Assembly: GCF_001434575.1 (NCBI RefSeq)
Contig: NZ_AZDA01000117.1
Location: 1-64,000 of the forward strand
Direction: 5' to 3'
Source: Loigolactobacillus bifermentans DSM 20003
Lineage (GTDB): Bacteria; Bacillota; Bacilli; Lactobacillales; Lactobacillaceae
DNA length: 64,000 nt
Position 1 is the first letter of the stretch. Each line of letters begins with the position of its first letter. Shown here piece by piece: positions 1 through 19,861 of the stretch. The notes under the pieces are model-generated. The model worked only from the letters and a program-made list of their open reading frames with translations. It was not told the origin of the DNA and did not search any database. The translations under genes were made by a program, and so were the position numbers.

Positions 1-65
1 AGTTTTCAAAGGTCTACCAAAGCTGATAAACAGCTTTTTAAGTATATCAGATAAGTCATACCCTT

Positions 66-238
66 GTCAAGAACTTTTTAAATCAATGAATGTTTATGCA
101 TTTATTAATTTATTTCGTTCAATTGACAACTTTTATATCTTATCAAAATGATTTGTTGTCGTCAAGGACTTTTTAAATCAATTTTGAATGAATCAAATCA
201 ATTCGGTTTGCTCCTTGACAACGAATACTATCTTATCA
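66..238. repeat. two tandem imperfect units of about 93 bp
   Basis: A 22-base block at 66-87 recurs at 161-182 with one mismatch (agaact against aggact), a spacing of 95 bases. A second block, ttgacaac followed by atctt and atca, occurs at 123-145 and again at 215-238, a spacing of 92-93. The middle of each unit has diverged. The repeat is seen directly; its role is unknown. Confidence 0.6.
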
Positions 239-701
239 GCAATCCAGAGCTACGTCAACGGTACTTTCACAACATTTTACAAAAGTCATCAAATCATCAT
301 TCTTCGTGTATTACAAATTCAGAATGTATAATAATCAGATATTTGATTATTCAATCATCTTGTCATGAATTATAGCGAACAAAATTATATGAAATATCAT
401 TAAAGTTCGTTTATTACCGTAAAATCATACTTATTTATCTCAAAATAATTCTTTTTCGTTCTTAGAAGCTTCTCATTTTACATAAAAATCATCGATTGCT
501 TTAAATAGCCATTATCCGTTTCCTACTATAATATGCTAACTAAATATACTTGCATGGCTATTAATTGTCCTGCCTCAACCTAGTCCTTCCGAATAGTACT
601 TCACATGCCAAGGCATCCTACGTTACTTACTTGCAGCAATTAAGCCATTGTCGTTTTCTATTGCTAAGTGTCCCTGGTGAGATAAAGTCATTCCCTTCCA
701 T

Positions 702-752
702 TTGTTTGAAATGAACTAACTTTTATCGCTAAACATCGTTCATTTCAAACAA
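702..752. repeat. 15-bp perfect inverted repeat
   Basis: The arms ttgtttgaaatgaac (702-716) and gttcatttcaaacaa (738-752) are perfect reverse complements with a 21-base loop. No T tract follows on either strand, so a simple intrinsic terminator is unlikely. It could be an operator, a processing hairpin or the remnant of a mobile element. Confidence 0.6.
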
Positions 753-902
753 TTTGTACTGGCCACACTGCATGACCATACCAAATTAGCACACAAAAGT
801 TGCCATTAACGCTAATATCTAAGTCAATCATCGTTACCGCCCACATGCCGATAGCATGAACATCACTCAAAAAGCACGATTCGATCTAGCAGTTACCACT
901 TA

Positions 903-1181
903 TCACCGCCTCACATCACCCGCGTGTACCGGCTCAAACGCCACCTGCAAATGCTGTCCGGTGATGGCGATTCGTTTAAGTAGCGGCAGCGTCGCATCTA
1001 CCGTCCCGTTTTCCAAACCAGTGATCACTTGTGGCAAACACCCAACACGCTGCGCCAACTGGGCTTGCGTCAGGCCTAATTCATAGCGCAATTGAAAAAC
1101 GGCGACGCTGGCATCAAAATTCAGACCCTGTTGGACTAATATTTCGGTGAAAGCTGATTGTTGAACTTGTAATTGTTCCAT
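903..1181 (-). CDS. XRE-family helix-turn-helix protein (antitoxin-like)
   Basis: A 92-residue protein with an XRE-type helix-turn-helix at about residues 30-70 (ELGLTQAQLAQRVG, then VITGLENGTVDATLPLLKRI). This resembles HigA- or phage-repressor-type DNA-binding domains. The start at 1181 has a strong aggaagg ribosome binding site about 7 bases upstream. There is no adjacent toxin gene, so it is either an orphan antitoxin or a free-standing regulator. The domain call is sound; the biological role is inferred only from family resemblance. Confidence 0.75.
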   Translation of the reverse strand: MEQLQVQQSAFTEILVQQGLNFDASVAVFQLRYELGLTQAQLAQRVGCLPQVITGLENGTVDATLPLLKRIAITGQHLQVAFEPVHAGDVRR

Positions 1182-1218
1182 GTGAAACCTTCCTAACCCT
1201 ATTTTTTTGGTTCTATTA

Positions 1219-1407
1219 TTAACTTACGCAACACAACCACATTTCCGTTTTATTCATCCAACTTTTTTGTGCCAGCACCCGGATCTCATTACGTATGTAA
1301 TAGGCTTGACGTTCGCTAACACCCATCCTATCCGCAATTTCAGCGTATGAATGCCCTTTTTGACGTAAGGTTAAAAACCGGTATTATACTGGTTTTAAGC
1401 ACTGCAT
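1219..1407 (-). pseudogene. broken small helix-turn-helix gene
   Basis: Reading the minus strand from an ATG at 1407 gives MQCLKPV, then an in-frame TAA at 1384-1386. The same frame continues for 54 codons with a clear HTH-like segment (SYAEIADRMGVSERQAYYIR) and stops at 1219-1221. The downstream part has no good start codon or ribosome binding site. This looks like the remnant of a small DNA-binding protein inactivated by a nonsense change; its parent family is not certain. Confidence 0.5.
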
Positions 1408-1492
1408 GAAACGGCGACAGCATTATGCCCTAACAATTAGGTGCTATTAGCCGTTACCTAAAATTACAACTATTTAAAGGAAGAATTTTTAG

Positions 1493-1721
1493 ATGAAACC
1501 TTTAGATCTAGCAGTCTTAAACGTAATCGACAAAACCAAACGCTTACGCCAACCAAGACTTAGATGAAGTCACTGTCAAACAAGCCATGGACACCATTGC
1601 TGGCTTGAAAATGTTCGAACAGGACTTGATCAATCCTTACGCCACCCCACGTTCGGCGCAATACATCGAACGGAAGGTCACACCAATTTTTGGTGGTGAT
1701 GGTGAAGCTGTCGCTGAATAA
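1493..1721 (+). pseudogene. frameshifted DUF2922-type small protein
   Basis: An ATG at 1493 follows an aaaggaag ribosome binding site and encodes MKPLDLAVLNVIDKTKRLRQ before running into a stop. From about 1550 another frame continues with DLDEVTVKQAMDTIAGLKMF and AQYIERKVTPIFGG, ending at 1719-1721. The two halves together match the DUF2922 pattern of small Lactobacillales proteins (VKxAMDTIxxLxxF, then SAQYIER). A short deletion near 1543-1550 would explain the break. DUF2922 function is unknown. A sequencing error is possible but cannot be tested here. Confidence 0.55.
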
Positions 1722-1756
1722 GCGTTAGCCAGAACTCTTTCGTTGACGCAACACAA

Positions 1757-1800
1757 AACAAGCCACACGTCCGATTTGGGGCGTGTGGCTTGTTTGTTTT
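1757..1800 (+). terminator. intrinsic terminator
   Basis: The 13-bp stem aacaagccacacg / cgtgtggcttgtt (1757-1769 with 1782-1794) is followed by gttttt. It sits just after the broken DUF2922 gene. Confidence 0.85.
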
Positions 1801-1922
1801 TGGAAGAAAATTAGCAATTTTTGCGAGTTGACTGTTACCGTTTTTGGGGAATCAAAGAGGTACCAGATAAACTGATATTAGGGGCAATTAATCCCCTAAT
1901 AATATAAGGAGGTGATATTGAC

Positions 1923-2195
1923 ATGGCAACAAATCGAACGCGTATCATCGCAATCTGCCTGATACTAGCTAACGGCATCTATTTGCTGGGGACAGCAGCC
2001 ACAGTCGAGGCAATCGGGCCACTAGGCAGTGTCAGCGGTAGTCCACTCGCTAGCCTGCTGACCTGGCTAGTCCCAACTTGGTTGATCACTGGTATCCGTT
2101 GGTGTCTCATGCTGATTTTGATTGGTACAATGGTTGATCTTATTATTTTAATTATTTGGTTGGTCGTGGCTGTTTGCCAGCGGTGGGGGCGATAA
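1923..2195 (+). CDS. small two-helix membrane protein, unknown function
   Basis: A 90-residue hydrophobic protein with likely transmembrane segments near residues 8-30 and 58-84, a short polar loop, and a basic C-terminus (CQRWGR). An excellent ribosome binding site (taaggaggtgat) precedes the ATG by about 8 bases. A terminator follows. I do not recognise the family. The good translation signals and hydrophobic pattern support a real gene. Confidence 0.6.
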   Translation: MATNRTRIIAICLILANGIYLLGTAATVEAIGPLGSVSGSPLASLLTWLVPTWLITGIRWCLMLILIGTMVDLIILIIWLVVAVCQRWGR

Positions 2196-2212
2196 TTCAT
2201 CTACTAGAATCA

Positions 2213-2257
2213 AAAAAGGCAGTTTGTGTCGTTATAAGACTGCAAACTGCTTTTTTT
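2213..2257. terminator. bidirectional intrinsic terminator
   Basis: The stem gcagtttg / caaactgc (2219-2226 with 2243-2250) is flanked by an A tract on one side and a T tract on the other. It can therefore end both the small membrane gene (plus) and the transporter operon (minus). Confidence 0.85.
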
Positions 2258-2291
2258 AGAATCAAGATATGGAGAAATTCAAATTTCAGAT

Positions 2292-3701
2292 TTAAAGTAA
2301 TCCCATAAGCCGCCACATTGGATACATAACAGCGATAAATCCGACAAACATAATAACAAATTTCAAGGACATTTGTTTAAAGAAATCTTTCATAGGCATC
2401 ATTCCGTAACCATACATAATCAAATTACCAGCGGATTCATAGGGTAGAAAGAGTAATTCACACGAGTAAAGCAAACACATACAAGCTACCAAAGGACTGA
2501 TATTTAACGAAACGGCAATTTGAACAAATGGTAACGCCAATCCGCCTAACATCGCATAAGGTGTCATACAAAAATGTGCAATTACCCCAATCACTAAGAA
2601 AGCGATGCAAATGAATAATGGACTTTTACCAGCTAAAACTGGAACCACAAGTTTTGTTAAAAAATCACCAAAACCAACTTGGGCCCCAACAAGTCCAATT
2701 CCTAAACAGGAAGCCACAAAGAAAACCATTGGGAAATTAAGCTTTTTTAGCATTTCGATATTGCCCATACCAATTTTAGGAAGATACATTAAGATTGGCA
2801 CAACCATAAAACCATATGCAGCAGGTAGCTTAATGAAAACTGAGATACAAAGATAAGCCAATAATAAAATGGTTAGTACAATTGCTTTCTTTTCCTTAAC
2901 ACTCAACTGACCTAGTTGACGATATTTATCATTGAACAGTTCTTTATGATCATTAACCTTTAAATTTTTGGTTTTATAAAGCTTCATCAAAATTAACAAC
3001 GCTAGCATGCACCAGATTATGAAGTACCCGTTATAAATGAAAGATGTGAAAAACGACATTTGATAATTTGGTTTCACTTTCGTAATAGCCGATTCAATAA
3101 TGGCGAAGTATCCCGGATCATAAAGGCATACAGTGCAACCAGTCGCACCAATTGTCCCAGCAAAACAAATCAATGAAGCTTCCCGAGACGGTTTTAGATC
3201 CATCGCTTTACAAACGCCATAAACCATTGCACTCGCTACCAGCCAACCATTACTAAATGTCACAATATTTAGAACGATTCCAATGAAAAAGCAGCCAAAC
3301 ACAGCACCCGCATAAGTACCGCCACATTTACAAATAACGTAATAAGCAATCCGTTTCAGTAAACCAATATCATCTAATACATTACTAAAAATCAGGCCAC
3401 CTAATACCATCCAAACTGTGGTGCTTGTCCACGAACCAAATGCAATTTTAAAGGGTACTAAGCCACTCATTAAATAAAGCGATGGCATCAAAATAGCCGA
3501 CACCAATTTGGGCAATAACTCAAGTGCAATAATTACGATCATGAATACTGTAATAACCAAAAACAGACGTAAACTCCTTGTAAAAGTTGTTGAAATCGGC
3601 ACTAGTGCGATTAAAGTTGGTAATGTTAAACTCATTAACCAACCAATTACTGTTTTTTTATCAACATTAAATCCCCTATGGCAAATCCCCATCTTCTCCA
3701 T
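2292..3701 (-). CDS. SLC13/DASS-type anion permease
   Basis: A 469-residue membrane protein with about 12 hydrophobic segments and the layout of the divalent anion:sodium symporter (DASS/SLC13, CitT-like) group. It has two similar halves, each with a hairpin region such as MVLGGLIFSN and GTIGATGCT, and a long charged loop near residues 240-270. A gaggg ribosome binding site precedes the ATG. It is the last gene of the activase-GRE-TSUP-ADH operon. By context it should import the anionic substrate (a sulfonate or small carboxylate) or exchange it for product. Family is fairly sure; substrate is inference. Confidence 0.7.
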   Translation of the reverse strand: MEKMGICHRGFNVDKKTVIGWLMSLTLPTLIALVPISTTFTRSLRLFLVITVFMIVIIALELLPKLVSAILMPSLYLMSGLVPFKIAFGSWTSTTVWMVLGGLIFSNVLDDIGLLKRIAYYVICKCGGTYAGAVFGCFFIGIVLNIVTFSNGWLVASAMVYGVCKAMDLKPSREASLICFAGTIGATGCTVCLYDPGYFAIIESAITKVKPNYQMSFFTSFIYNGYFIIWCMLALLILMKLYKTKNLKVNDHKELFNDKYRQLGQLSVKEKKAIVLTILLLAYLCISVFIKLPAAYGFMVVPILMYLPKIGMGNIEMLKKLNFPMVFFVASCLGIGLVGAQVGFGDFLTKLVVPVLAGKSPLFICIAFLVIGVIAHFCMTPYAMLGGLALPFVQIAVSLNISPLVACMCLLYSCELLFLPYESAGNLIMYGYGMMPMKDFFKQMSLKFVIMFVGFIAVMYPMWRLMGLL

Positions 3702-3743
3702 ATCGCAACCCTCTTATTGTCGGATAAATCTTATTATTCCAAA

Positions 3744-4892
3744 CTACAGTGCTTTTTGATATAACGCAATCACATCTTTAATAGTTGTAAGACGTGGGTT
3801 AACTGCAATGTTAGGACTCTTCATAGCATCTTCGGCCATTTCTTGGAACTTATCTTCGGTGACACCAACTTCAGATAATGTGGTTGGCATTCCTAACGCT
3901 GCACTTAATTTCTTAACTTCATCGACCAACATCTCTGGTTCAAAATTAGCGGCTGGTTGTGCTGAAGTGCGGATATAATTATAGATTTTTTCATAACGTC
4001 CACGATCTGCAATCATGTTATATTCTAAAATCGTTGGTAACAAAATTGCATTAGCAACCCCGTGGACGACATGGAAATAAGCACTTAGAGGATGACTCAT
4101 TGCATGAATATCACCTAATTTCGCCCAGGCAAAGGACATACCCGCAAACGTTGAGCCAACCATCATAGCACAAGCAGCTTCTTTATCTTGCCGGTTCGCA
4201 ACAAACTGACGTAAATTAGGACCAATCAAGGCCATTGCTTTTTCAGCCATTGCATCGGTAAATGGTGATGCGTTCCGTGAGAGATATGCTTCCATTGCAT
4301 GAATTAAAGCATCGATCCCACAAGCAGCCGCGATTGAAGCAGGTGCTGTCATAATCATATCTGGATCTAAAACAGCATATTTCGGCAACATTTCATGGCT
4401 GATCACTGACATTTTATAGTTCCGTGCTTCATCGGTGATCACAGCTGAAGCAGATACTTCACTCCCAGTTCCTGCTGTTGTTGGTACTGCAATGATCGGC
4501 ACAATTGGGCCCGGCACTTTATGTAACCCTTCATAATCTGTAATTTCACCACTATAGGTTGCTAAAACTCCTGTCGTCTTCGCCACATCCATAGCACTAC
4601 CACCGCCGATTGCAACAATGCTAGTCGCACCACTTTCTTGATAGTTTTTAGTGGCATCATTTACTACATCAACAGTTGGATTGGGCACAACCCCTAAATA
4701 AACGGTGCAGGTTAGCCCGTCGGTTTCGATAATATCTTGAATCTTTTTAACAACGCCTAATTTAGCTAATCCTTCATCTGAAATTAAGAAGACGTGTTCA
4801 GATTTATTTTCTTTCAAAATGCCAGGTAACTTTTTTAAACTGCCTAAACCAAACTCAATACTTTGTGGTACTTTAAATGTAAAATCTTGCAT
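3744..4892 (-). CDS. iron-containing alcohol dehydrogenase
   Basis: A 382-residue group III (Fe-type) alcohol dehydrogenase of full family length. Visible motifs are GGGSAMDVAK (nucleotide binding, about residues 96-105), AVPTTAGTGSE (about 135-145) and metal-ligand histidines in HAMSHPLSAYFHVVHG (about 263-278). Gene order suggests it reduces the aldehyde made by the glycyl radical enzyme, regenerating NAD+: acetaldehyde, hydroxyacetone or a sulfo-aldehyde depending on the substrate. Relatives in sulfonate clusters include SarD and HpfD type enzymes. It could also act in the oxidative direction. A gaggaaat ribosome binding site supports the start. Confidence 0.85.
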   Translation of the reverse strand: MQDFTFKVPQSIEFGLGSLKKLPGILKENKSEHVFLISDEGLAKLGVVKKIQDIIETDGLTCTVYLGVVPNPTVDVVNDATKNYQESGATSIVAIGGGSAMDVAKTTGVLATYSGEITDYEGLHKVPGPIVPIIAVPTTAGTGSEVSASAVITDEARNYKMSVISHEMLPKYAVLDPDMIMTAPASIAAACGIDALIHAMEAYLSRNASPFTDAMAEKAMALIGPNLRQFVANRQDKEAACAMMVGSTFAGMSFAWAKLGDIHAMSHPLSAYFHVVHGVANAILLPTILEYNMIADRGRYEKIYNYIRTSAQPAANFEPEMLVDEVKKLSAALGMPTTLSEVGVTEDKFQEMAEDAMKSPNIAVNPRLTTIKDVIALYQKAL

Positions 4893-4910
4893 ATTTATTT
4901 CCTCTACTTT

Positions 4911-5699
4911 CTAAATAGCTGCCATTAAACTAGTCACTAACATGTTGCCACCGACAAATAATAAGACGACATAAACAATCCGTAGAAATTGTTCGCGATT
5001 GATTTTCTTTAAGAAGGCCATTCCTAAGAAGAACCCAATTGCTGCCATTGGTAAACCAATTAATAAAGAACTCCATAAAACTGGTGATGATGCAGTCCCA
5101 CCACGTAATTGCGTGAAAGCATTCCACGTATTTAAGATCACCCAGACCATATTCATTGTATTTCGAAATTTTTCTTTATCTTTAACTGCTTCAATGGTAT
5201 AAACTGTGATCAGCGGACCACCAATCGTAAATGCCCCATGAACAACGCCGCCTAAAATTAAGCAACCATAACGGAAAATCTTTTTGCCAGTGGTATCAGG
5301 TACATTTTCATCATCCGGTTTCTTTAAAATAACGGGTTTAACAATATGTTTATAAATATTCATCAATGCAATCAGCGTTACCATAGCACCAATGAAGATT
5401 TTAGCCATATTCGGATCTAACGCGTGAAATAGGAAGTTCCCAACTAAAATACCAGGTACACATAAACCGATAATTTTGCCTAAGTCTTTCCATGAGACAT
5501 TATGAAATGAACGAATCCCTAAATAATAGAGAAACGGTAACGTTATTAAAGTGCCATAAGGGACCCCAATATTAGTCCCTAATAGCCCGTTAGTAACCGC
5601 AGCCGCAATTACAGTACAGCCAAAACCTGTACAGCCTTGTACGAAGAACCCCACAATTTGCATTAAACCTACAAGTACATAATTGAAATGAAATATCAT
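4911..5699 (-). CDS. TauE/SafE (TSUP) family exporter
   Basis: A 262-residue protein with about 8 transmembrane segments and the TSUP signature near its N-terminus (GFFVQGCTGFGCTVIAA) and middle (GGVVHGAFTIGGPLITVY). Members export sulfite, sulfoacetate, 3-hydroxypropanesulfonate or related anions. Its place between a glycyl radical enzyme and an Fe-alcohol dehydrogenase is the main reason to suspect organosulfur chemistry. Start at 5699 follows gagagggcggtaggg. Family sure; cargo inferred. Confidence 0.8.
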   Translation of the reverse strand: MIFHFNYVLVGLMQIVGFFVQGCTGFGCTVIAAAVTNGLLGTNIGVPYGTLITLPFLYYLGIRSFHNVSWKDLGKIIGLCVPGILVGNFLFHALDPNMAKIFIGAMVTLIALMNIYKHIVKPVILKKPDDENVPDTTGKKIFRYGCLILGGVVHGAFTIGGPLITVYTIEAVKDKEKFRNTMNMVWVILNTWNAFTQLRGGTASSPVLWSSLLIGLPMAAIGFFLGMAFLKKINREQFLRIVYVVLLFVGGNMLVTSLMAAI

Positions 5700-5726
5700 C
5701 CCTACCGCCCTCTCCGCTATGTTTAA

Positions 5727-8207
5727 TTAAAAGCTCAGCTCTGTCCGTTGAATTAAGTCCTTCTGTAATGGCTTGCCAAGCTCTACAAAGTAAGCACTAT
5801 ATCCAGCTACTCGGACCAACATATCTTTGTAGTCTTCCGGTTTCTTCTGTGCTGCCCGCATTGTCTCAGAACTCATAATGTTAAATTGAACATGCATTGG
5901 GCCTTTCGCAATATACGCATCAATGAAGCTTAATAAGTTATTACGTCCTTGAATACCAGCAACTGCATCTTGTGGGAATCGTAAATTCATTAACGTCCCA
6001 TTTGTAGCTAAACTATGATCCACTTTGGCTAATGAATTAACCAGCGCAGTCGGTCCACAAATATCGTGCGAACCAGCATCAGTATGAACCGGCCCCATAT
6101 TATCAGAAATAGCCTCACCTTTTTTACGACCGTCTGCTGAAGCATGGGTGTTCATGCCCATTGCCACGTTAGCATTAACCGAGTAAACACCCGGTCGGAA
6201 GTCACCACCACGTAAATTCTTACGGCCAGTGATATGACGGCAATAGCATTCAAACATATACTTAAATAATTCATCAGCATAGTCATCATCATTGCCATAA
6301 TGATGGACTTTTGAACTATTAACCATTGCGTATAAAACGTCATGACCTTCCCAATTGTCTTTAATGGCTTGCAGTAATTCTGAACCGCTACAATATTTAT
6401 CCTCAAAAACTAATTGCTTGATGGTTGCCAAAGAATCTGCACACGTTGCTGTTCCACTTGCCTGTGGGCCAATACCATTGTACTTAGCACCGCCTTCAGT
6501 TAAATCCTTACCAGAATCCATACAATCTCCGAAGAAGGCTGAAACGTATGGCAATGGCTTTAGTTCACGATGTAAAGCATCGATTATATTCAAGCTACTG
6601 CACATTTGATCAGTCCAATATTCAAACTGTTGATCAACACTGGCTAAGACCTCATCAAAGCTAGTATACGTATCGAGGCTCCCTGTATCTGGCCCTAACT
6701 GCTTACCTGTATTAAAACTACGGCCACCATTTAAGACCATTTCCATCATTTTTGGTGTATTCACATAAGCCGCATCATGCCAGCCATATTCTTTTCCTGG
6801 TAGACTTAATTCAACACAGCCAACGACACAATAATCACGCGCTTCTGCCAATGTCATTCCTTTGCGCATCATTGCTTTAATAGCAGGTGCATCATTATAT
6901 AATTTAGGATGCCCATAACCAGCACGAATACACTCAACAACTTTCATTTTCAGCTCATACGGTGTATTTTCATGCATCCGAACACAAACCCAAGGATTCA
7001 TCATACGTGTATGTGCAGATCCTTCTAACATCAACATGGTTAAATCATTAGTCGCATCATTACCATCACGATCAACCCCACCGATGGTTAAGCTCTCACC
7101 ACCAAAACCTCGACCATTCCGAACAGCCATACTGCCTTGATCTTTCAATTTTGTTGGATTATTCATCTTGACATACTCAACCTCAAGTAATTCCAAGGCA
7201 AAATCTTTCGTCAAAGTGGCTTTCTTCATATCAGCCTCATAATAAGGATATAACCACTGATCCATCCGACCATATGAAATTGAATGGCCATTACTTTCCA
7301 CTTGAATTAAAGCGGTTGCAATATTGAACAATTGCAAGGCCTGCCAAAAAGTCTTCGGTGTCCCATCTGCGATTTGATAACAGTTAGCTGCCATTTCTTC
7401 CAACTCTGTCTGGCGTTGTTGATTTGTTGTTTCTTTTGCGGTAGCCATCGCTAATTTTGCATAGCGTTTAATATAAGTCCGTGCGGCCTCATGCATAATA
7501 ATCATAGCTTGATAAAAATCTCGTTTAGCGGCCCATTCTGGATCACGTTTACTCAACGCCGCTAAATGCTTTTTAGCTTCTTTGATAAGTCCTACATAAC
7601 CAACCTTCATTAGGTTTTTATAATCAATGGCTAAATGTCCAACACCAGCATAATGATAAAGATTCGTTTGAAAAATCTTTTCGCCCACTTCAGAGCCTTT
7701 CAATTGGTCTTCATCAAGACTGGCTTGTAATCGGTCATCAACTGTTTTACCTTGCCACCACTTACATAAATCTAGGATTTCTTGTCGTTCCTCATCATTA
7801 CGAATAAAGAATTTATCATGTTCCCGTTCCTCAAATGGTGAATTTAAAATTTCATCAATGATCCAATTAACTGAAAATTCTGGATAAATCGGCGCCGCTT
7901 TCGCTGGTGCAGCAATTTCACCAACAATTAAATCCTGATCGTAAATATAAAGCTTGGTATTTAACAGTACATTCTCAAAAGCATAGGCGCACTGCATTTT
8001 TTTTGATTCAGTTTGATGCGCTTGATAAGATTCGGTTACTAATCTTAAACGTTCAACATCAATATCATAAGAACGATCCAGAAAATCCTGCCGTAACTTA
8101 TTAACGCGTGAGAAAGGTGACCAATCTGTATGATGAACTTGATACCCAATCCCATAAGTCTTATCAAATGGCTCCGTTCCAATAGCTGTTGTATGTGTAT
8201 TACTCAT
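5727..8207 (-). CDS. glycyl radical enzyme of the dehydratase/lyase type
   Basis: An 826-residue glycyl radical enzyme. The C-terminal glycyl loop RVAGYSAYFVEL is intact, with the radical glycine at about 802. The active-site loop is GCVELS with thiyl cysteine at about 464 and catalytic glutamate at about 466. The Cys-x-Glu arrangement is that of the eliminating enzymes (glycerol and diol dehydratase, choline lyase, isethionate and DHPS sulfite-lyases, HpfG dehydratase). It is not the Cys-Cys motif of pyruvate formate-lyase. Ribosome binding site aaggagg overlaps the end of the activase gene. With the TauE/SafE exporter, Fe-ADH and anion permease, a sulfonate lyase or sulfodiol dehydratase is favoured. 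The exact substrate cannot be read from motifs. Requires anoxia. Confidence 0.85.
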   Translation of the reverse strand: MSNTHTTAIGTEPFDKTYGIGYQVHHTDWSPFSRVNKLRQDFLDRSYDIDVERLRLVTESYQAHQTESKKMQCAYAFENVLLNTKLYIYDQDLIVGEIAAPAKAAPIYPEFSVNWIIDEILNSPFEEREHDKFFIRNDEERQEILDLCKWWQGKTVDDRLQASLDEDQLKGSEVGEKIFQTNLYHYAGVGHLAIDYKNLMKVGYVGLIKEAKKHLAALSKRDPEWAAKRDFYQAMIIMHEAARTYIKRYAKLAMATAKETTNQQRQTELEEMAANCYQIADGTPKTFWQALQLFNIATALIQVESNGHSISYGRMDQWLYPYYEADMKKATLTKDFALELLEVEYVKMNNPTKLKDQGSMAVRNGRGFGGESLTIGGVDRDGNDATNDLTMLMLEGSAHTRMMNPWVCVRMHENTPYELKMKVVECIRAGYGHPKLYNDAPAIKAMMRKGMTLAEARDYCVVGCVELSLPGKEYGWHDAAYVNTPKMMEMVLNGGRSFNTGKQLGPDTGSLDTYTSFDEVLASVDQQFEYWTDQMCSSLNIIDALHRELKPLPYVSAFFGDCMDSGKDLTEGGAKYNGIGPQASGTATCADSLATIKQLVFEDKYCSGSELLQAIKDNWEGHDVLYAMVNSSKVHHYGNDDDYADELFKYMFECYCRHITGRKNLRGGDFRPGVYSVNANVAMGMNTHASADGRKKGEAISDNMGPVHTDAGSHDICGPTALVNSLAKVDHSLATNGTLMNLRFPQDAVAGIQGRNNLLSFIDAYIAKGPMHVQFNIMSSETMRAAQKKPEDYKDMLVRVAGYSAYFVELGKPLQKDLIQRTELSF

Positions 8208-8219
8208 AAAAAAGCCTCC

Positions 8220-9182
8220 TTATTCTTTTGTATCCTCTTGTTCTTTTGTACCAACTAAACAATGAATGCCACGCCGATTAAAATAAGCGGCAATTTCCGC
8301 AACATGTTCCTGAAAGGCCTCACGATCAAGTTCAATCCCTTCCATGCCATATGGAATATTAAGCGACTGATACTTTTCGACACCTAATCGCATAAAACTA
8401 AGTAGTTGCAGGGTTCTAACACGACCATGCAGTTCATTTAAAATAAAATCAGCAGTTGCTTCAATATTGGTTCTATCATCATTAACGTTGGGAATTACTG
8501 GAATTCGTAGAATCAATTCCTGTTTTAGATCCGTTAATCGTTTCAAATTCTCTAGAATAATTTTATTGTCACCGCTGGTATATTGCCGATGAATCATTGG
8601 ATCCATGTGTTTAATATCAGAAATCCAAATATCGGTATACGGGATCAGCGCCTCAACTTTTTTCCAATCTGCATAAAAAGTTGTTTCACAACAGGTTTGA
8701 ATGCCTTCTTTTTGACAGGCCTTAAATAAAGACAACACAAACTCGCTTTGTAGCAACGCCTCACCACCTGAAACTGTTACACCACCACCTGACTGTTCAT
8801 AGTAAGACTTATCTTTACAAATAATTGTCATACACTCTGACACTGACATAGTTTTTCCCCACTGTTTGATAGCATCTGCGGGACATGCTTTTTCGCAATC
8901 GGTGTAATCTACTTGTTTTGAATTATCAATTGCTGTCAATTTATCGCGCTTAAAGTTTAAAATACCTTTAACCGGACAAGCCGGCGTACATAAACCACAT
9001 TTACTCAGTGAAATACACTTTGATTGATAGGCGCCCCATTCAATTGCTGGTGCCCAACTTTCTGGATTACTACACCACTGACATCGTAACGGACAGCCTT
9101 TTAAAAATAGTTCTGTTCTTAATCCTGGTCCATCATGAATTGTGTAGCGCTGAACGTCAAAAACAATTCCTTTATCAGCCAT
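8220..9182 (-). CDS. radical SAM activase of the glycyl radical enzyme
   Basis: A 320-residue activating enzyme. The radical SAM motif CPLRCQWC lies at residues 30-37. A ferredoxin-like insert carries two further cysteine clusters (about residues 56-71, CGLCTPACP, and about 93-98, CEKACP), as in GRE activases larger than PflA. SGGVTVSGGEALLQ is the SAM-binding GGE region. It would install the glycyl radical on the next gene's product. First gene of the operon, 12 bases before the GRE, with a ggggg-type ribosome binding site. Activase is certain; pairing with the neighbour is very likely. Confidence 0.9.
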   Translation of the reverse strand: MADKGIVFDVQRYTIHDGPGLRTELFLKGCPLRCQWCSNPESWAPAIEWGAYQSKCISLSKCGLCTPACPVKGILNFKRDKLTAIDNSKQVDYTDCEKACPADAIKQWGKTMSVSECMTIICKDKSYYEQSGGGVTVSGGEALLQSEFVLSLFKACQKEGIQTCCETTFYADWKKVEALIPYTDIWISDIKHMDPMIHRQYTSGDNKIILENLKRLTDLKQELILRIPVIPNVNDDRTNIEATADFILNELHGRVRTLQLLSFMRLGVEKYQSLNIPYGMEGIELDREAFQEHVAEIAAYFNRRGIHCLVGTKEQEDTKE

Positions 9183-9220
9183 TCTATGCCCCCAATCTGC
9201 CTATCCAAAAGTTAAAAAGC

Positions 9221-9310
9221 TTTTGTATGCTCAAATAATAACAATATCTATTTAATTTAATAATTGGCCACTTGGCTTATTTTGAAATAAGGAATTTTCC
9301 CCAGATTAAA
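9221..9310 (-). promoter_or_regulatory. promoter/operator copy A of the GRE operon
   Basis: Upstream region of the activase. It contains tatgctcaaataataacaa (9226-9244) and a ggaattttcc dyad (about 9291-9300). Both elements recur at the same spacing in copy B, 287 bases further on. No canonical minus 35 box is obvious, which fits activator-dependent transcription, perhaps by the neighbouring LuxR-type protein. The repeat is seen; the function is inferred. Confidence 0.5.
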
Positions 9311-9375
9311 TAAGACAGCTTTACAAAAACATCACAAATATTGGACACATCTATCCTGACATCAGCAAATTAAAC

Positions 9376-9427
9376 AATAAAAAAGACGTTACGCCTAGGT
9401 CTAGTAACACCTAGTCATAACGCCACT
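9376..9427 (-). terminator. terminator behind the LuxR-type gene
   Basis: On the minus strand a 14-bp stem with two mismatches (cgttatgactaggt / acctaggcgtaacg) is followed by tctttttt. It separates the regulator from the GRE operon, so the operon must have its own promoter at copy A. Copy B lies upstream of this hairpin, so a transcript started there would end here after roughly 100 bases. Confidence 0.8.
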
Positions 9428-9507
9428 TGTAGCATAACCTTTATATTCTATGGGTTTCATTAATTTTTCAAATTAAAAATAGTAAGCTAAATCAAATCTT
9501 TTAAAAG

Positions 9508-9600
9508 CGCTTTATGCTCAAATAATAACAAACTAAAAATAAAAATAGCATCGGCCATTCTGTTGATTTTATATCAGGAACATTCCTTATATAAAACCAG
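9508..9600 (-). promoter_or_regulatory. operator-like copy B downstream of the LuxR-type gene
   Basis: An exact 19-base match to copy A at 9513-9531, a common ggcca block, and an aggaacattcct dyad at about 9576-9587. It is placed between the regulator's stop codon and its terminator. See the finding on the duplicated operator. Confidence 0.45.
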
Positions 9601-9612
9601 CCAATTTCAAAA

Positions 9613-10716
9613 TTACTCACGATTATATAATTTATAAAGTTCAAAGCGACTATTGATGCCACATTTACTGTAGATGTTTTGAACGTGCTTTTTGACCGTA
9701 TGATAGCTAATCACCATTTCGGCCGCAATCGCTTTATAAGTTAAACCATTACACATTAAGCGTACTACTTTTTGTTCTGTATTGGTTAACTGCGAATCTG
9801 CCGCCTTAGTACTCACGGTATCCGACTTACGTTCCTTAGCCACTGTAATCCAATGATAGCGATCCACAATACCATTGGAATACGTTTGATCATACGAATA
9901 AATTTTAAACTCATAATTTTTAATGATCCGCGTTCGAACACCGTCTTTTATATCATGTTCATCTTCACTTCCTAAAAGAAATGGTAACCAACTACACGGC
10001 GTTGTACTACTAATTTGTTCAGCAATCGTTGCGCCTAAAATACCTTTCAAACATTCAATCGCTTCCTGGTTATAGCTCATAACATGCATAAAATCATCGG
10101 TGATCAAATATGCTTTTTCACCAGAAGCAATAATCTTATTCTGAATATTTTGAACAATTTTTGCTTGCTCATATTTTTTAAAGTTCTTATAGGAGTTCGC
10201 TAAATAAACATATACTTCTTTGATCTTAGCCATTTCAGCCTCTGTAAAATCACCTTGATCCAGTGTTTTAAAAAGAACAACTTGAATATAAGCGTTAATA
10301 CCAAAAGCCAGTGTAACACTATAATGTGTTTTAAAATTCTCCTCAATAAACTCAACGTAGGCTGAATGCTCATAGTCATTTTCTGGAATGATTTTAGTTG
10401 ACTGATAAAGTCGTGGTTCAGTATTAAAATAAGTTAATTCATCTCGTACCGCATCTTGAAAAACAGTTTGCCGAATCACATCATGCGGCAACAATTGACG
10501 ATAAGGATGCTGATCGCAATCTCCTAAAATACCACGCCAATAGGTCCAAGATAAAAACTGTCCCTGCGTATCATAATAAGAAATCAAAACTTTTTTCCAG
10601 CCAAACGTTTTATCTAAATAATCCAGTAGAACTGTACTAAAAAACTCACGTGCTGAAATTTGATATTCGGATAGCTCAGAAAACAGATTTGCTTGGCTTG
10701 AGTCTTCCTTTTTCAT
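9613..10716 (-). CDS. LuxR-type transcriptional regulator
   Basis: The C-terminal 60 residues are a typical LuxR/GerE helix-turn-helix (LTNTEQKVVRLMCNGLTYKA, then TVKKHVQNIYSKCGI). The N-terminal 290 residues form an unrecognised sensor part, possibly GAF- or PAS-like. The open frame runs further upstream, but the start at 10716 (MKKEDSSQ) has a perfect gggaggaaataaa ribosome binding site, giving 367 residues. Position between the GRE operon and the NCS1 permease suggests it senses the substrate and activates one or both. An extended minus 10 (tgtgatact) lies just upstream. Confidence 0.8.
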   Translation of the reverse strand: MKKEDSSQANLFSELSEYQISAREFFSTVLLDYLDKTFGWKKVLISYYDTQGQFLSWTYWRGILGDCDQHPYRQLLPHDVIRQTVFQDAVRDELTYFNTEPRLYQSTKIIPENDYEHSAYVEFIEENFKTHYSVTLAFGINAYIQVVLFKTLDQGDFTEAEMAKIKEVYVYLANSYKNFKKYEQAKIVQNIQNKIIASGEKAYLITDDFMHVMSYNQEAIECLKGILGATIAEQISSTTPCSWLPFLLGSEDEHDIKDGVRTRIIKNYEFKIYSYDQTYSNGIVDRYHWITVAKERKSDTVSTKAADSQLTNTEQKVVRLMCNGLTYKAIAAEMVISYHTVKKHVQNIYSKCGINSRFELYKLYNRE

Positions 10717-11097
10717 TTTATTTCCTCCCGCTGATACAGTATCACAAACAATTAAACGCTTATTCGCAACCACTCCGCGTATAAATCCGGTTTCATTACA
10801 TCTAGTATACAATTCATTGTCTTTAAATAGCATCAGATTCAGGACAAAAAATGAAAAATTATATTTATTTTCATTCAAATACAAAAACCACGATTGCTGA
10901 ATTAAACTTATTTTCATAAGTGTCCTCCCGTAATAGACTAATTTTATTAGTATCATTACCGTTATCTTATATTTGTATAACGAAATAAAGATATACCAAT
11001 TGACTTTATGATCTGATACGGCTAAATTTATATGTATAGAGATTCACAATATTGAACTGTCGTTTAACAACATTTGCTGTTTTTAGGGGGTTTTATT

Positions 11098-12372
11098 ATG
11101 GATACGGTAACACATGATTGGTCACGTCAAAACTACATTAAGTTATGGTTAAATGTCTCAATGTGTGTACCAACTTTTCTGGTGGTTGAAACATTAGCCG
11201 GTTATCATTGGAATTTATTAACTATTTTGCTAGTCGTTTTAGCTGGATCGGCTATTATGGGGGCCTTGTGTGGCGTGATGGGTGTCTTAGGGAGACGCTC
11301 ACAAAAAAACTTTGTCACATTAATAGGCAACGTCTTTGGTACACGCTATAGTAAAGTATTTTACGTGCTACGCGGTCTTGATTGTGCCGGCTGGTATGGC
11401 ATTAATATCGCTGCTGCAACACAACTCATTATCAATTTATTAGCCCTTACCACCGGCACTAAAATTGGGATGCTACCTTATTTATCCATATTTATCATCT
11501 TACTTATTGCAAATGCGATTATCGCACAAAGCTCCGGTAGCCTACAAAAACTATTATCAATTACACTCATTGTAATGGCAGTAGGCATTATATTAGTTCT
11601 CATTAATATGGGGAGCCGTACCATTTCTGATGCCAACTTTTTAGCAAATGGTCCGCTTCTCAAAACACGAGACATTATTGGTAGTATTTGTGTCGTAGCT
11701 GCTTACTGGAATGGCTTTGCACTAAACATGTTTGACTTCGGCCGTAACGCTGAAACTGATCGAGACGCCTTCTTAGGAAACTTTATCGGTATTATTTGTG
11801 GCATGTTTGCCATGGCTGTTATCGCTGCAATCTTTGCAATTCAGTCCTTTATCGCAACTGGCGCTTATAATTGGAACCTAAGCCATTCTTTATTACATCT
11901 TTCAGCTTCTTTACCAGCACATATTTTTGTTGTCATTATCTTCCTAATGTTTATGATTGCTACTAATTCAGTTGCTAATTACTATCCCGCCATTCAATGT
12001 ATTCAGGCTATTGGTAGCTCCAAACATATCAAACTGAATGCAGCTATCTTTCTTCTGGTCAGTAGTGCTATTACACCTTTCTTTCTTAGTTCATCAACAA
12101 GTGAGTTAGCTTATTATTGGATCAACCTTTGCGGTACTGTCTTAGCACCACTACTTGCTGTACTAGTTTGTTACCTGCTCTTAAATAAGAGCCATACTGT
12201 CAGTATTACGCAATATCGTTGGGCGTACCTGATCTGGACCGGATTATACATTGGTGCCGAACTCGTAACTCGTTCCATCTTAAGCTACCTTTGGATTGTT
12301 TCGATTGCTGGTATCTTTGTGACAGTCTACTTATTACATAAGGTTCAATCAAAACAGGCACTAGCAAACTAA
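11098..12372 (+). CDS. NCS1-type permease (cytosine/purine permease-like)
   Basis: About 424 residues and about 12 transmembrane segments with NCS1 (CodB-like) layout: an N-terminal tryptophan-containing stretch, LRGLDCAGWYGIN, AAYWNGFALNMFDFGR, and C-terminal paired helices. The start at 11098 is preferred over an upstream ATG because aggggg precedes it. Typical cargo is cytosine, purines, allantoin, hydantoin or thiamine-related bases. It is transcribed divergently from the LuxR-type gene, so it may import the substrate of that regulon or an unrelated base. Substrate unknown. Confidence 0.7.
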   Translation: MDTVTHDWSRQNYIKLWLNVSMCVPTFLVVETLAGYHWNLLTILLVVLAGSAIMGALCGVMGVLGRRSQKNFVTLIGNVFGTRYSKVFYVLRGLDCAGWYGINIAAATQLIINLLALTTGTKIGMLPYLSIFIILLIANAIIAQSSGSLQKLLSITLIVMAVGIILVLINMGSRTISDANFLANGPLLKTRDIIGSICVVAAYWNGFALNMFDFGRNAETDRDAFLGNFIGIICGMFAMAVIAAIFAIQSFIATGAYNWNLSHSLLHLSASLPAHIFVVIIFLMFMIATNSVANYYPAIQCIQAIGSSKHIKLNAAIFLLVSSAITPFFLSSSTSELAYYWINLCGTVLAPLLAVLVCYLLLNKSHTVSITQYRWAYLIWTGLYIGAELVTRSILSYLWIVSIAGIFVTVYLLHKVQSKQALAN

Positions 12373-12383
12373 TTATTACTTCA

Positions 12384-12420
12384 CAAAAAAGCTCACTTCT
12401 TCAACTGAAGTGGGCTTTTG
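12384..12420. terminator. bidirectional intrinsic terminator
   Basis: The stem aagctcacttc / gaagtgggctt (12389-12399 with 12407-12417) has A residues before it and T residues after it. It serves the NCS1 permease on plus and the transketolase operon on minus. Confidence 0.85.
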
Positions 12421-12445
12421 TAACCAGCATAAACGTTTGAATCAC

Positions 12446-14440
12446 TTATAACGCCTTAAACTTCGCGACAACATTTTCCACAGTAAATCCAAATTTTTGC
12501 AAATTGGTGTCACCAGGTGCTGACGCACCAAAACGATCAATTCCTAAACTAGCACCTTGGTTCCCGACATATTGAGCCCAACCAAAAGTTGCACCGGCCT
12601 CAATACTCAGTCGCTTAGTCACGCCAGCCGGCAAGACGCTTTCCTGATAGACAGCATCTTGTGCCGCAAAGCGATCAAAGCTTGGCAACGAGACAACACT
12701 AACAGCCTGACCTTCAGCGGCCAATTGGGCTTGTGCTGCTAACGCCAAGTTAACTTCGGACCCAATAGCAATCAGCAAACCATCTGGCGTTTCTTGATTG
12801 GCCGCTTTCACAACATAACCGCCACGAATAACACCTGCTAAAGTCGTACTTGCTGAATTTGGCAAGGTGGCCAACCCTTGTCGACTTAAAACTAAGACTG
12901 TCGGTCGATCTGTGGTGGTTAAGGCCGTAGCCCAAGCCGCTGAAGTTTCATTCCCATCGGCTGGCCGGATAACTTGTACATTAGGCATGCAACGAAGGCT
13001 GGCCAATTGTTCGATTGGTTCATGAGTTGGGCCATCTTCTCCAACGGCAATCGAATCATGGGTCAGCACATAGATCACAGGTTGATGTTGCAATGCTGAA
13101 ACTCGAATGGCTGCCCGCAAATAATCAGTAAACACAAAGAATGTTCCACCGAAAACGCGTGTACCACCATGCAACGAGATACCATTCATGGCTGTGGCCA
13201 TTCCAAATTCACGAACACCAAACCAGATATTACGGCCAGCATAATTATCCGCTTCAAAAGCGGCTTCATCAGCAATTGTTGTCTTGTTAGAACCCGATAA
13301 ATCAGCTGAGCCACCCCAGAAGTTAGGTAAAACTTTTGCTAACGCATTAATGGCCTTACCACTTGCTGCACGTGACGCTAACTTATCATCGGCCATATAA
13401 GTCGGAAGTGATTCAGCCAAGTTAGCTGGTAAAGTTTGTTTGAAGCCAGCTTCAAATTGCTCGGCTAATACTGGGTATGCTGCTGCATACTTTGTAAATA
13501 AGGTATGCCATTGATTCTCTGCGTCGGCACCTTTCATTTGAATAGTCGTTTTAAAACGGGCTGCCACGGTTTCAGGCACCGTAAAATCTGGATAGTTCCA
13601 ACCATAAGCCTTTTTTGCTGCAGCAACACCGTCTTCCCCTAAAGGACTCCCATGAACATCATGAGTACCTTGTTTGGGTGCGCCAAAACCAATCACCGTT
13701 TTGATTTCAATAATTGTTGGCTTACCTGTTTCAGCTTTAGCCGCGCCAATTGCCGCATCAATAGCCGCTAGGTCAGTGCCATCGGCCACCGTCAAATGTT
13801 GCCAACCATAAGCTTCAAATCGTTGACCGACATTTTCAGTAAAAGCCGCTGCTGTTGGTCCGTCTAAGGAAATATGATTGGAATCATATAAAGCAATTAG
13901 TTTGCCTAACTGCAAATGGCCGGCGAGTGATGCCGCTTCATGAGAAATACCTTCCATTAAGTCGCCATCCCCGACTAAGGTGTACGTATAATGATCCATA
14001 ATGGGATAACCAGGCTGATTGTATTGAGCACCTAAATGCGCTTCAGCCATAGCCATGCCAACCGCCATCCCCAGGCCTTGACCTAAAGGCCCAGTGGTTG
14101 CTTCAACACCATCAGTTAAATCATATTCTGGGTGACCTGGGGTCTGACTTCCCCATTGTCGAAATTGTTTGAGATCGGCAATAGACACTTGATAACCCGA
14201 CAAGTGTAACAAACTATATAACAAGGCTGATCCATGACCTGGCGAGAGGACAAAACGATCCCGATTAGGCCATTTTAATGAAGTTGCCGGATTGACCTTT
14301 AAATGCCGCGTCCATAAAACATATGCCATTGGTGCTGCACCTAAAGGTAACCCCGGATGGCCCGAATTAGCTTTTTGAATCATATCCATACTTAATGTTC
14401 GCAATGTATTAACACCTAATTGATCTGTTTCATCAAACAT
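12446..14440 (-). CDS. tkt: transketolase
   Basis: A 664-residue transketolase of full length. The thiamine diphosphate motif is [13 protein letters not shown] (about residues 154-166). HGSPLGEDG and the pyrimidine domain [13 protein letters not shown] follow. It moves two-carbon units between ketose and aldose phosphates. As the last gene of a mannitol-type PTS operon it would connect incoming fructose- or pentulose-phosphate to the pentose phosphate pool used by phosphoketolase. A hairpin lies between it and the EIICB gene, so expression may be lower than that of the upstream genes. Confidence 0.95.
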
Positions 14441-14465
14441 CTATTGTCACTCCTTCTATACTAAA

Positions 14466-14503
14466 AAGTCGAACAAACAGTTTATTAACTGCTCGTTCGG
14501 CCA
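14466..14503 (-). terminator. intercistronic hairpin / weak terminator
   Basis: The imperfect inverted repeat cgaac..acagtt / aactg..gttcg (14470-14499) is followed on the minus strand by actttttag. It is placed between EIICB and transketolase, and probably attenuates or protects the operon message. Confidence 0.5.
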
Positions 14504-14508
14504 AATCG

Positions 14509-15918
14509 TTATTCGTGATGCTCGACGACTTCCTGAGCTAATTCATCAATAACCGGATCCTGTAAATAATTCGTCAGCGTTACAATGCGCATTCCTGGAC
14601 GTGCTTTTTTCATTCGCTCTTCTAAATCTTTGTGTACCACTACAATTTCACTATCGTCTGGCACATCTTCGATTCGATAATTCTTAATTTCAACGTCTTC
14701 AACACCAAGTTTTTTCAATTTGCGTTTAAACGTCGTCGCCCCTAAGGCACTACTTCCCATCCCAGCATCACAAGCAAAGGAGATTTTCTGATAAGGTTCT
14801 GTTTGTGTCACTGTCTTTTTTCCAGCATCATGCATCGCATTTGAAGTCGCAACTGAGGTTTCAAAAGCATCATCACCATCTGATTTATCAGCCTTTAAAA
14901 TAACCGCTGCCACCAAGAATGTCACGACTGTTGCCACAATGACATCAGCAATCATCCCTAGGAAATGGCCTTTAGGCGTTAACGCTAAGTAAGCCAAAAT
15001 CGAGCCTGGACTTGGACCTGCAACTAAACCAGCACCTAAAACTTGGGCGGTTAAGATCCCAGAAGCGGCACCGGCCATCATCGCAATAATTAAAAGCGGT
15101 TTCATTAAAACGTATGGGAAATACATTTCATGGATACCACCTAAGAAATGAATAATCGCTGCACCAGGTGCTGTTCGTTTAGCGGCACCTTTGCCAAAAA
15201 CAGTATAGGCCATCAATAAGCCTAAACCAGGGCCTGGGTTAGAAGCTAGCATAAAGTAAATTGATTTACCGGCTTTTAGCGTTTGTTGCATTCCTAATGG
15301 ATAGTAAACCCCTTGATCAATAACATTATTTAAAAATAGCACTTTTGCAGGCTCATTAATAATAGCAGCTAAAGGTAACATCCCTGTTGAAACCAATGAT
15401 TGAATTGCAATGGTCAGAATATGGTTAAGATATTCAATCGTTGGTCCAATCAATGAATAAGAGGCAAGCATTAAGATAAAGCCAACAATCCCAATTGAAA
15501 AATTATTGACGATCATTTCAAACCCGGCCGGAATTTTATCCTCCAAAAACTTATCTACCTTTTTCATGATCCAGCCGCCTAAAGGTCCAACTAGCATGGC
15601 ACCTAAAAACATTGGTATTTTTGCCCCAATAATCAATCCCATCGTTCCGATACTACCAAGGACTGCGCCACGCCGACCACCAACCATTTTACCGCCTTCA
15701 TAGGCCAGCAATAGTGGCAACAAATATGTGACTGTAGGGGATACTAACTTGTTAAAATCAGCATTGGGAAACCAACCATTTGGAATAAATAGTGCGGTTA
15801 CGATCCCCCATGCAATAAAAGCCCCAATATTAGGCAACACCATATTGGTTAAAAAACCACCAAAGGCCTGCACTTTTGCGCGTGTAGAAACTGTTTTTTC
15901 TTTTGTTTGTGTTGTCAT
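14509..15918 (-). CDS. mtlA: PTS mannitol-type EIICB component
   Basis: 469 residues. The N-terminal EIIC membrane domain (about 1-345) has the mannitol signature GGIHEMYFPYVLMKP. The C-terminal EIIB domain (about 375-469) has phosphorylatable cysteine in FACDAGMGSSALGA. EIIA is a separate gene just upstream, as in other Firmicutes. It takes up a hexitol or pentitol with phosphorylation. The transported substrate may be mannitol or a pentitol, given the pentose-phosphate genes in the operon. Confidence 0.88.
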   Translation of the reverse strand: MTTQTKEKTVSTRAKVQAFGGFLTNMVLPNIGAFIAWGIVTALFIPNGWFPNADFNKLVSPTVTYLLPLLLAYEGGKMVGGRRGAVLGSIGTMGLIIGAKIPMFLGAMLVGPLGGWIMKKVDKFLEDKIPAGFEMIVNNFSIGIVGFILMLASYSLIGPTIEYLNHILTIAIQSLVSTGMLPLAAIINEPAKVLFLNNVIDQGVYYPLGMQQTLKAGKSIYFMLASNPGPGLGLLMAYTVFGKGAAKRTAPGAAIIHFLGGIHEMYFPYVLMKPLLIIAMMAGAASGILTAQVLGAGLVAGPSPGSILAYLALTPKGHFLGMIADVIVATVVTFLVAAVILKADKSDGDDAFETSVATSNAMHDAGKKTVTQTEPYQKISFACDAGMGSSALGATTFKRKLKKLGVEDVEIKNYRIEDVPDDSEIVVVHKDLEERMKKARPGMRIVTLTNYLQDPVIDELAQEVVEHHE

Positions 15919-15924
15919 TGGTTA

Positions 15925-16362
15925 TCACACCTCGCTTTCAAATACTTTCAAAACAGCTGCTTCTGAATCAGCCGATTGTAATGCTTGCACCTTTTCTGGT
16001 TCACTAAGTGCTTCACCAAGCTCCGCCAATAAATCTAGATGCCCATCATTTGATTGGGCGGCTAATGCAATAAATAGCGTTACTGGCGCTTGTTTTGGAA
16101 ATAATACGGGTTGCTTTAACTGCAAGAAACTAAGGCCAGTCGCTAAAGCGCCGTATTCAGGTCGAGCATGCGGCATCGCAACTTCTGGCAAAATAATAAT
16201 GTAATTTCCGTTTTGCTCAACGTTTTGAATAATCGCATCAACATAATTTGGCGTTACAATCTTTTTTTCAACTAAGGGTGTTGTGGCTATGCGAATTCCG
16301 TCCTGCCACGAATTAACCTGGTCTCGGAATTGAATGTTACCTTTCAGATAGTCTTGAAGCAC
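15925..16362 (-). CDS. PTS EIIA component
   Basis: 145 residues, an EIIA of the fructose/mannitol/ascorbate fold (PTS_EIIA_2). The active-site histidine is in VAMPHARPEYGA (about residue 66). The surrounding sequence is closer to ascorbate- or galactitol-type EIIA (UlaC-like) than to the usual MtlF. It lies 6 bases before the EIICB gene and 1 base after the dehydrogenase, so it is surely co-translated. It relays phosphate from HPr to EIIB. Confidence 0.82.
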   Translation of the reverse strand: MLQDYLKGNIQFRDQVNSWQDGIRIATTPLVEKKIVTPNYVDAIIQNVEQNGNYIIILPEVAMPHARPEYGALATGLSFLQLKQPVLFPKQAPVTLFIALAAQSNDGHLDLLAELGEALSEPEKVQALQSADSEAAVLKVFESEV

Positions 16363-16363
16363 C

Positions 16364-17536: not shown

Positions 17537-17544
17537 ATTTTCAC

Positions 17545-18797: not shown

Positions 18798-18819
18798 ACC
18801 GATCACTCCCTCAATTAAT

Positions 18820-18833
18820 TGGTATCGCTTTCA
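18820..18833 (-). promoter_or_regulatory. catabolite-responsive element (cre)
   Basis: On the minus strand TGAAAGCGATACCA fits the cre consensus TGWAANCGNTNWCA, differing only at the W near the end. It lies 23 bases upstream of the epimerase ATG, so CcpA bound there would block the polyol operon. The consensus is known from Bacillus and lactobacilli. Confidence 0.75.
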
Positions 18834-19741: not shown

Positions 19742-19756
19742 CCATCAAACTAACAG

Positions 19757-19833: not shown

Positions 19834-19861
19834 AGTTTACCCGCTATAAAATTTAAAGCAA

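Follow-up and report, generated by a model that had tools for sequence, protein, structure and literature searches.

A predicted dihydroxypropanesulfonate-fermentation cassette and its putative dedicated activator in Loigolactobacillus bifermentans

What would a lactobacillus do with a glycyl radical enzyme (GRE) that is encoded among genes for an activase, two membrane transport proteins and an alcohol dehydrogenase? This question is raised by a locus in the first 64,000 nucleotides of contig NZ_AZDA01000117.1 of Loigolactobacillus bifermentans DSM 20003, a 64-kb stretch that we call the window and whose positions serve as coordinates throughout. The list of open reading frames (ORFs) contains five co-directional genes on the minus strand between 2292 and 9182, which an earlier note on this DNA had read as activase, GRE, TSUP exporter, Fe-type alcohol dehydrogenase and DASS permease; both their order and their strand are borne out by the ORFs and by domain matches. 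Sequence comparisons indicate that the locus is very probably an HpfG-type cassette for the fermentation of dihydroxypropanesulfonate (DHPS), or (2S)-3-sulfopropanediol, a sulfonate from plants and algae. A sixth co-directional gene, encoding a regulator directly upstream of hpfH, was missing from that note, and we count it as part of the unit because it recurs at that place in relatives. A purine-rich stretch precedes the start of every gene of the cassette.

The assignment centers on hpfG (5727..8207, minus strand, 826 amino acids), whose product carries PFL-like and Gly_radical domains and scores 1643.2 bits in an NCBIfam profile search with the HpfG model NF048009 (cut-off 1000), on which the enzymes of Hungatella hathewayi, Klebsiella spallanzanii and Secundilactobacillus pentosiphilus used for comparison score 1720, 1722 and 1638 bits, respectively. 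It stays below all other listed equivalog cut-offs, including those for choline lyase, hydroxyproline dehydratase and pyruvate formate-lyase, and is only just over the cut-off of the broad subfamily model TIGR01774 (688 versus 678). On the HpfG model, the two GREs of this genome that come next score 528 and 448 bits, and one of them is the hydroxyproline dehydratase HypD (1292 versus 1100 bits). The window enzyme shares 79.8% identity with HpfG of H. hathewayi and 79.5% with that of K. spallanzanii, and the GRE motifs pointed out in the earlier note are found at residues 463-466 (GCVE, with Cys464 and Glu466) and 799-807 (RVAGYSAYF, with Gly802). A quick maximum-likelihood tree was built from 84 rows, 78 HpfG proteins and six other GREs; because the latter lie on long branches, some of them very long, the tree is used only for placement inside HpfG. 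The window protein groups with HpfG, apart from the other GREs, and is sister to that of S. pentosiphilus (support 100) in a clade with six Enterococcus sequences (97). A check for clear clustering with a non-sulfonate family, proposed in the same note, gave no such clustering. Furthermore, Arg363, Arg366, Arg401 and Lys550 are invariant in the 78 HpfG proteins and absent from five, six, five and six of the six other GREs, respectively, a pattern that fits an anionic substrate. Judged by its sequence, the window GRE is a clear HpfG-type DHPS dehydratase.

The other four genes of the run, all on the minus strand, are consistent with the same pathway. The product of hpfH (8220..9182, 320 amino acids) is the radical-SAM activating enzyme of DHPS dehydratase according to NF048008 (558.4 bits, cut-off 500), the only equivalog cut-off that it passes; the broad subfamily model TIGR02494 was also passed. 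The hpfD gene (3744..4892, 382 amino acids, PF00465/PF25137) encodes an Fe-type alcohol dehydrogenase, probably an NADH-dependent 3-sulfopropionaldehyde reductase, with 72% identity to its positional counterpart in H. hathewayi. The TSUP (TauE/SafE) membrane protein (4911..5699, 262 amino acids) matches PF01925 with 78 bits (cut-off 32.6), and the DASS-family anion permease (2292..3701, 469 amino acids) matches the Na_sulph_symp family PF00939 with 94 bits (cut-off 27) while remaining under the cut-off of TIGR00785 (92.5 versus 198.6 bits). In all 12 full cassettes from other genomes described below, the TSUP gene holds the same position and the DASS gene comes last, and we infer from family and position that TSUP is a probable exporter of 3-hydroxypropanesulfonate (3-HPS) and DASS a probable importer of DHPS.

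Put together, the DASS permease would import DHPS, HpfH would install the radical on Gly802 of HpfG, and Cys464 would abstract a hydrogen, with loss of water giving 3-sulfopropionaldehyde; HpfD would reduce this aldehyde with NADH to 3-HPS, which the TSUP protein would export. The dehydration and reduction steps are predicted by family membership. The benefit would lie in the regeneration of NAD+ and the disposal of surplus electrons, and neither the release of sulfite nor, in this genome, the formation of 3-sulfopropionate with ATP would be expected. The HpfG/HpfH/HpfD pathway of H. hathewayi and Klebsiella oxytoca was reportedly described by Liu et al. (PNAS, 2020). Passages of PMC11489063 have HpfG convert DHPS into 3-sulfopropionaldehyde, HpfD reduce it with NADH to 3-HPS and HpfE export the product, and treat HpfDEGH as an NADH sink; passages of PMC12330013 and PMC12890257 likewise name K. 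oxytoca and H. hathewayi as species that form 3-HPS from DHPS by reduction. One of the options in the earlier note, an Fe-type alcohol dehydrogenase acting after an HpfG dehydratase in a pathway that uses an external electron acceptor, is borne out. Its statement that no microcompartment gene is present also holds, as PF00936 has no match in the whole genome and matches in 2 of 14 control genomes.

The first alternative of that note was that the GRE is a lyase, which would cleave the C-S bond of isethionate or DHPS, with sulfite leaving through the TSUP protein and the resulting aldehyde or ketone being reduced. Both the DHPS sulfolyase HpsG and the isethionate lyase IslA are also GREs acting on small sulfonates, and the TSUP gene adjoins the GRE gene and belongs to a Pfam family named for sulfite export. 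In contrast to these sulfite-releasing lyases, however, the window GRE reaches only half of the HpsG cut-off (505.3 versus 1000 bits, NF048011) and matches isethionate lyase weakly, with 7kq3 ranking 28th of 37 PDB matches at 321 bits against 613 bits for glycerol dehydratase. Its His191 and Asp478 belong to GVGH and GWHD, motifs that are also present at the aligned places of glycerol dehydratase 1r8w. Cleavage of either substrate is thus highly improbable, and neither the isethionate nor the HpsG option is upheld. That glycerol dehydratase is the best match among solved structures might instead point to another small diol or sulfonate, such as glycerol, propanediol or a C4 sulfonate, with DHPS not being the physiological substrate, and several groups of HpfG-like loci indeed lack HpfD at the identity cut used. 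We give this possibility little probability in view of the equivalog score, the 80% identity to H. hathewayi HpfG, the identical cassette with its DASS anion permease, and the four invariant basic residues that are mostly or wholly absent from the six other GREs.

A bifurcated pathway deserves separate consideration, since passages of PMC11489063 describe one in Enterococcus gilvus, and the closest relatives of the window HpfG outside lactobacilli are those of Enterococcus. Part of the aldehyde would then be converted by HpfXYZ to 3-sulfopropionate with a gain of ATP, and the TSUP protein would export this product. The whole genome, and with it the cassette, has no match to ATP-grasp_2 (PF08442), a family found in 11 of the 14 control genomes, and therefore should have no HpfYZ branch, so that this pathway is very hard to reconcile with the genome. 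Several observations nevertheless weigh against reduction of DHPS to 3-HPS as we describe it. HpfD passes no NCBIfam cut-off, which is also true of H. hathewayi HpfD, no curated model covering either protein. The equation of the TSUP protein with HpfE is a candidate match, as the passages on HpfE export give no protein family, and for E. gilvus, passages of PMC11489063 suggest that a TauE protein acts on 3-sulfopropionate instead. Finally, the genome has no match to GH31 (PF01055) and therefore no sulfoquinovosidase of the known kind, so that DHPS would need an external source. A GH31 enzyme with which the cell itself would free sulfoquinovose was accordingly rejected, and uptake of DHPS from outside is the simplest reading. 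Two TAL_FSA proteins are encoded in the genome, one of them beside a second transketolase.

The make-up of the cassette is itself not new: Enterococcus, Hungatella, Fournierella, Caloramator and Proteiniclasticum all have these genes in this order. From 99 stretches confirmed in named genomes we obtained 79 distinct loci, several of which end at contig ends, so that gene presence is a lower bound. Under the identity cuts used, the full order regulator-hpfH-hpfG-TSUP-hpfD-DASS is present in 12 of them, from S. pentosiphilus, six Enterococcus, Fournierella massiliensis, two Hungatella (H. hathewayi DSM 13479 included), Caloramator quimbayensis and Proteiniclasticum ruminis, with the regulator gene lying 4.6 kb away in one Hungatella locus (L019). 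The remaining loci hold subsets or other orders, such as hpfD-regulator-hpfH-hpfG-TSUP in three enterobacteria. The H. hathewayi locus has the same order as the window, with identities of 80% for HpfG, 68% for HpfH, 72% for HpfD, 77% for TSUP, 64% for DASS and 64% for the regulator, and differs in its host and in having one operator-like site over threshold, whereas the lactobacillus has two operator-promoter modules. The clusters of E. pallens, E. florum, E. hulanensis and three more Enterococcus species show the identical six-gene order with HpfG 81-84% identical, but have one operator, 117-118 bases before hpfH, where the window has two. In E. gilvus, according to passages of PMC11489063, HpfXYZ and sulfoglycolysis genes are added, for which the markers PF08442 and PF01055 are absent from the window genome. 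In eleven loci, all of Vibrio except one of Alginatibacterium (L048, L051, L052, L055, L057, L058, L063, L064, L067, L073 and L081), hpfG precedes hpfH and no hpfD, TSUP or regulator gene is found at the identity cuts, which perhaps means another reductase or another use. The alignment of hpfG from Clostridium sp. cel8 (L080, 7231-9598) falls into two parts, as would be seen with a change of frame inside the gene.

Among lactobacilli the cassette is rare. In 397 Lactobacillaceae genomes, evenly drawn from a larger group, the HpfG model finds matches at E 0.001 or better in 107 and passes its cut-off in two, the window genome, alone among eight of its genus, and one of 15 genomes of another genus, which is 100% identical to S. 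pentosiphilus over 20 kb. S. pentosiphilus IWT25 (NZ_BCMI01000023.1) shares the whole cassette with the window, with HpfG 89.5% identical, and likewise has a long interval between regulator and hpfH (425 bases). DNA similarity between the two covers 2337-9170 and 9627-10673, but none is seen outside the cassette in the stretches compared. The cassette has a G+C content of 37.8%, against 42.8% for the window as a whole, 41.3% for the right flank and 39.5% for the left flank, the contrast with the immediate flanks being modest. HpfG relatives with 84% identity are located on two Enterococcus raffinosus plasmid records of more than 1.1 Mb, and one with 73% identity lies on a 92-kb fusobacterial plasmid beside activase, TauE and Fe-type alcohol dehydrogenase genes. 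A search of plasmids with 12446-37000 returned phosphoketolase and phosphotransferase system genes of other lactobacilli among the matches listed (15 of 27). No empty site was found, the transketolase neighbours within the genus being too diverged (49-63%) for comparison, except for an 88% identical copy in the same genome. These data suggest that the cassette was probably acquired horizontally. The two transketolase genes in question are located at 12446-14440 of the window and at 25595-27586 of contig C19, the latter beside a small transaldolase gene.

The regulator, provisionally named HpfR, is encoded at 9613..10716 (minus strand, 367 amino acids) and carries a LuxR-type helix-turn-helix (HTH) (PF00196, 50 bits). 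Its start at 10716 was chosen over the longer ORF start at 10956 on the basis of GGGAGGA before the ATG and an alignment of 31 sequences. In the structure model (mean pLDDT, predicted local distance difference test, 85.7), an alpha/beta domain at the N terminus is followed by a helix of 40 residues, then by a PAS-like domain and the HTH. Foldseek returned PAS-HTH proteins (VqmA, EL222) and phytochrome-type proteins, with whole-chain query-normalised TM (template modelling) scores of at most 0.33 among the matches listed. The order of secondary structures and the PAS-HTH matches suggest a GAF/PAS-like sensor, which might respond to DHPS or to the redox or anaerobic state. A description of this regulator or its operator was not among the matches listed in our literature searches; for the name HpfR, no title on sulfonates was among the matches listed, the string having other meanings.

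A possible operator for this regulator is the palindrome ATAGGGAANNTTCCCTAT, which occurs between the regulator gene and hpfH in other genomes. The operator matrix was built from 18 sites of other genomes chosen by a fixed pattern, which therefore match by construction, and was applied to 80 sequences (1.48 Mb), the 79 loci and positions 1-20000 of the window. Of 46 sites over threshold, 40 fall within 600 bases before hpfH, and 22 of these 40, both window sites among them, were held out from the matrix. The two window sites, both on the minus strand, are the best and second best in the 64 kb: operator 1 (9571..9592, score 16.8) lies 20 bases after the regulator stop codon and operator 2 (9285..9306, score 16.6) lies 103-124 bases before the hpfH start, while the third-ranked site scores 6.4. 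Of 20 Markov sequences of 64 kb, 19 gave a maximum of 9.3 or less and one reached 16.0. The site accompanies the regulator, being present in 32 of 34 loci with an adjacent regulator gene, in five of seven with the gene elsewhere in the stretch and in two of 32 without it, while seven further loci end in the scanned region. As for the two regulator-less loci with a site, the genome bin of one (L038) has the regulator on another contig (L075), and the other (L068) contains a regulator-like stretch of 38% identity, under the cut. An extended -10 box, TGT-TATTAT, begins 42-44 bases past the 22-base site in 28 of the 40 sites, both of the window included; it is found at 9522..9527, 43 bases after operator 1, and at 9235..9240, 44 bases after operator 2, where it would belong to the presumed hpfH promoter, in each case on the minus strand. 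Leaving out the window, the count is 26 of 38; over 1000 spacer rotations it averages 3.1 and never exceeds 10. A site near -65 would suit an activator that contacts RNA polymerase from its upstream side.

The fit of this regulatory arrangement is not complete, since two loci with an adjacent regulator gene (L036 and L082) and two with the gene elsewhere (L028 and L065) lack a site over threshold, and in 12 of the 40 sites the -10 box is off the common distance. A pattern search of the whole genome found only the two window sites, but the reversed control pattern gave as many rows; therefore this search proves nothing alone, and the weight lies in the joint position of the sites. Scans of the window for sigma-70 promoters and for terminators gave no excess over shuffles (30 versus 33.0 and 7 versus 6.7, respectively), and Rfam and tRNA scans of it had no matches.

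Between the two modules lies a terminator-like hairpin with a U run (9385..9424, minus strand; -21.3 kcal/mol, z -3.05, none of 200 shuffles as good), part of which was also flagged in the terminator scan. The first promoter should therefore make only a short RNA unless the hairpin is read through, and 9370-9612 appears as an extra operator-promoter module, closed by a strong terminator, that is predicted to yield a short transcript before the operon. Transcription is predicted to start near 9515 and near 9228, and the short RNA to end near 9380. In S. pentosiphilus a site over threshold stands at -391, and a weaker second palindrome at -119 precedes a -10 region of similar kind. In our reading of the locus, the regulator, bound at the palindrome about 65 bases before the presumed transcription start, would turn on hpfH-hpfG-TSUP-hpfD-DASS. 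More broadly, we tentatively propose, as a model somewhat less likely than not, that many Firmicutes and some enterobacteria control their anaerobic use of DHPS through one dedicated activator, with an N-terminal GAF/PAS-like sensor and a LuxR-type HTH, that binds ATAGGGAANNTTCCCTAT at this distance from the start. Switch and pathway would move as one unit and would have supplied two lactobacilli from separate genera with a sulfonate as external electron acceptor, together with an extra operator-promoter-terminator module making a short RNA of about 130 bases. Further operator-like sites are seen between hpfH and hpfG in L045 (9897) and 4.3-4.5 kb before hpfH in three enterobacteria (L015, L017 and L021), which suggests that more genes may be under the same control.

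The earlier note knew of no described lactobacillus system of this make-up. Our literature searches agree on the host, as a DHPS pathway in lactobacilli was not reported in the searches made, with most subscription journals outside their coverage, whereas the make-up itself is known in Enterococcus and Hungatella. No text beginning with lactobac- is present in PMC11489063, PMC9594981, PMC12890257 or PMC12330013. Joint mention of lactobacill- and dihydroxypropanesulfonate was limited, judging from titles and the starts of abstracts, to a paper on salvianic acid production and a general review of glycolysis, and that of HpfG and lactobacill- to a review of metallic nanoparticles among the matches listed. 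The pathway is thus ordinary in kind and, as far as the searches reach, new in its host. With this cassette, lactobacilli would join the known anaerobic fermenters of DHPS. They are organisms of fermented plant material, in which sulfonates derived from sulfolipids are to be expected, and we predict that strains with the cassette make 3-HPS and more acetate when DHPS is available. In addition, the regulator-operator pair predicts which HpfG-like clusters are under one control, and could help to find further genes of the pathway.

Hydrogen formation from lactate is known in L. bifermentans, and contig C97 encodes an [FeFe] hydrogenase of about 609 amino acids at 52239-54068 (PF02906, 270 bits). 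At 3.6 kb from it is the gene for a 1439-amino-acid protein that, judged by eye, resembles the activator of 2-hydroxyacyl-CoA dehydratases. Contig C84 encodes a further GRE, whose sole match at the strict threshold is the broad model TIGR01774 (917 bits) and whose gene is adjoined by an activase-like ORF.

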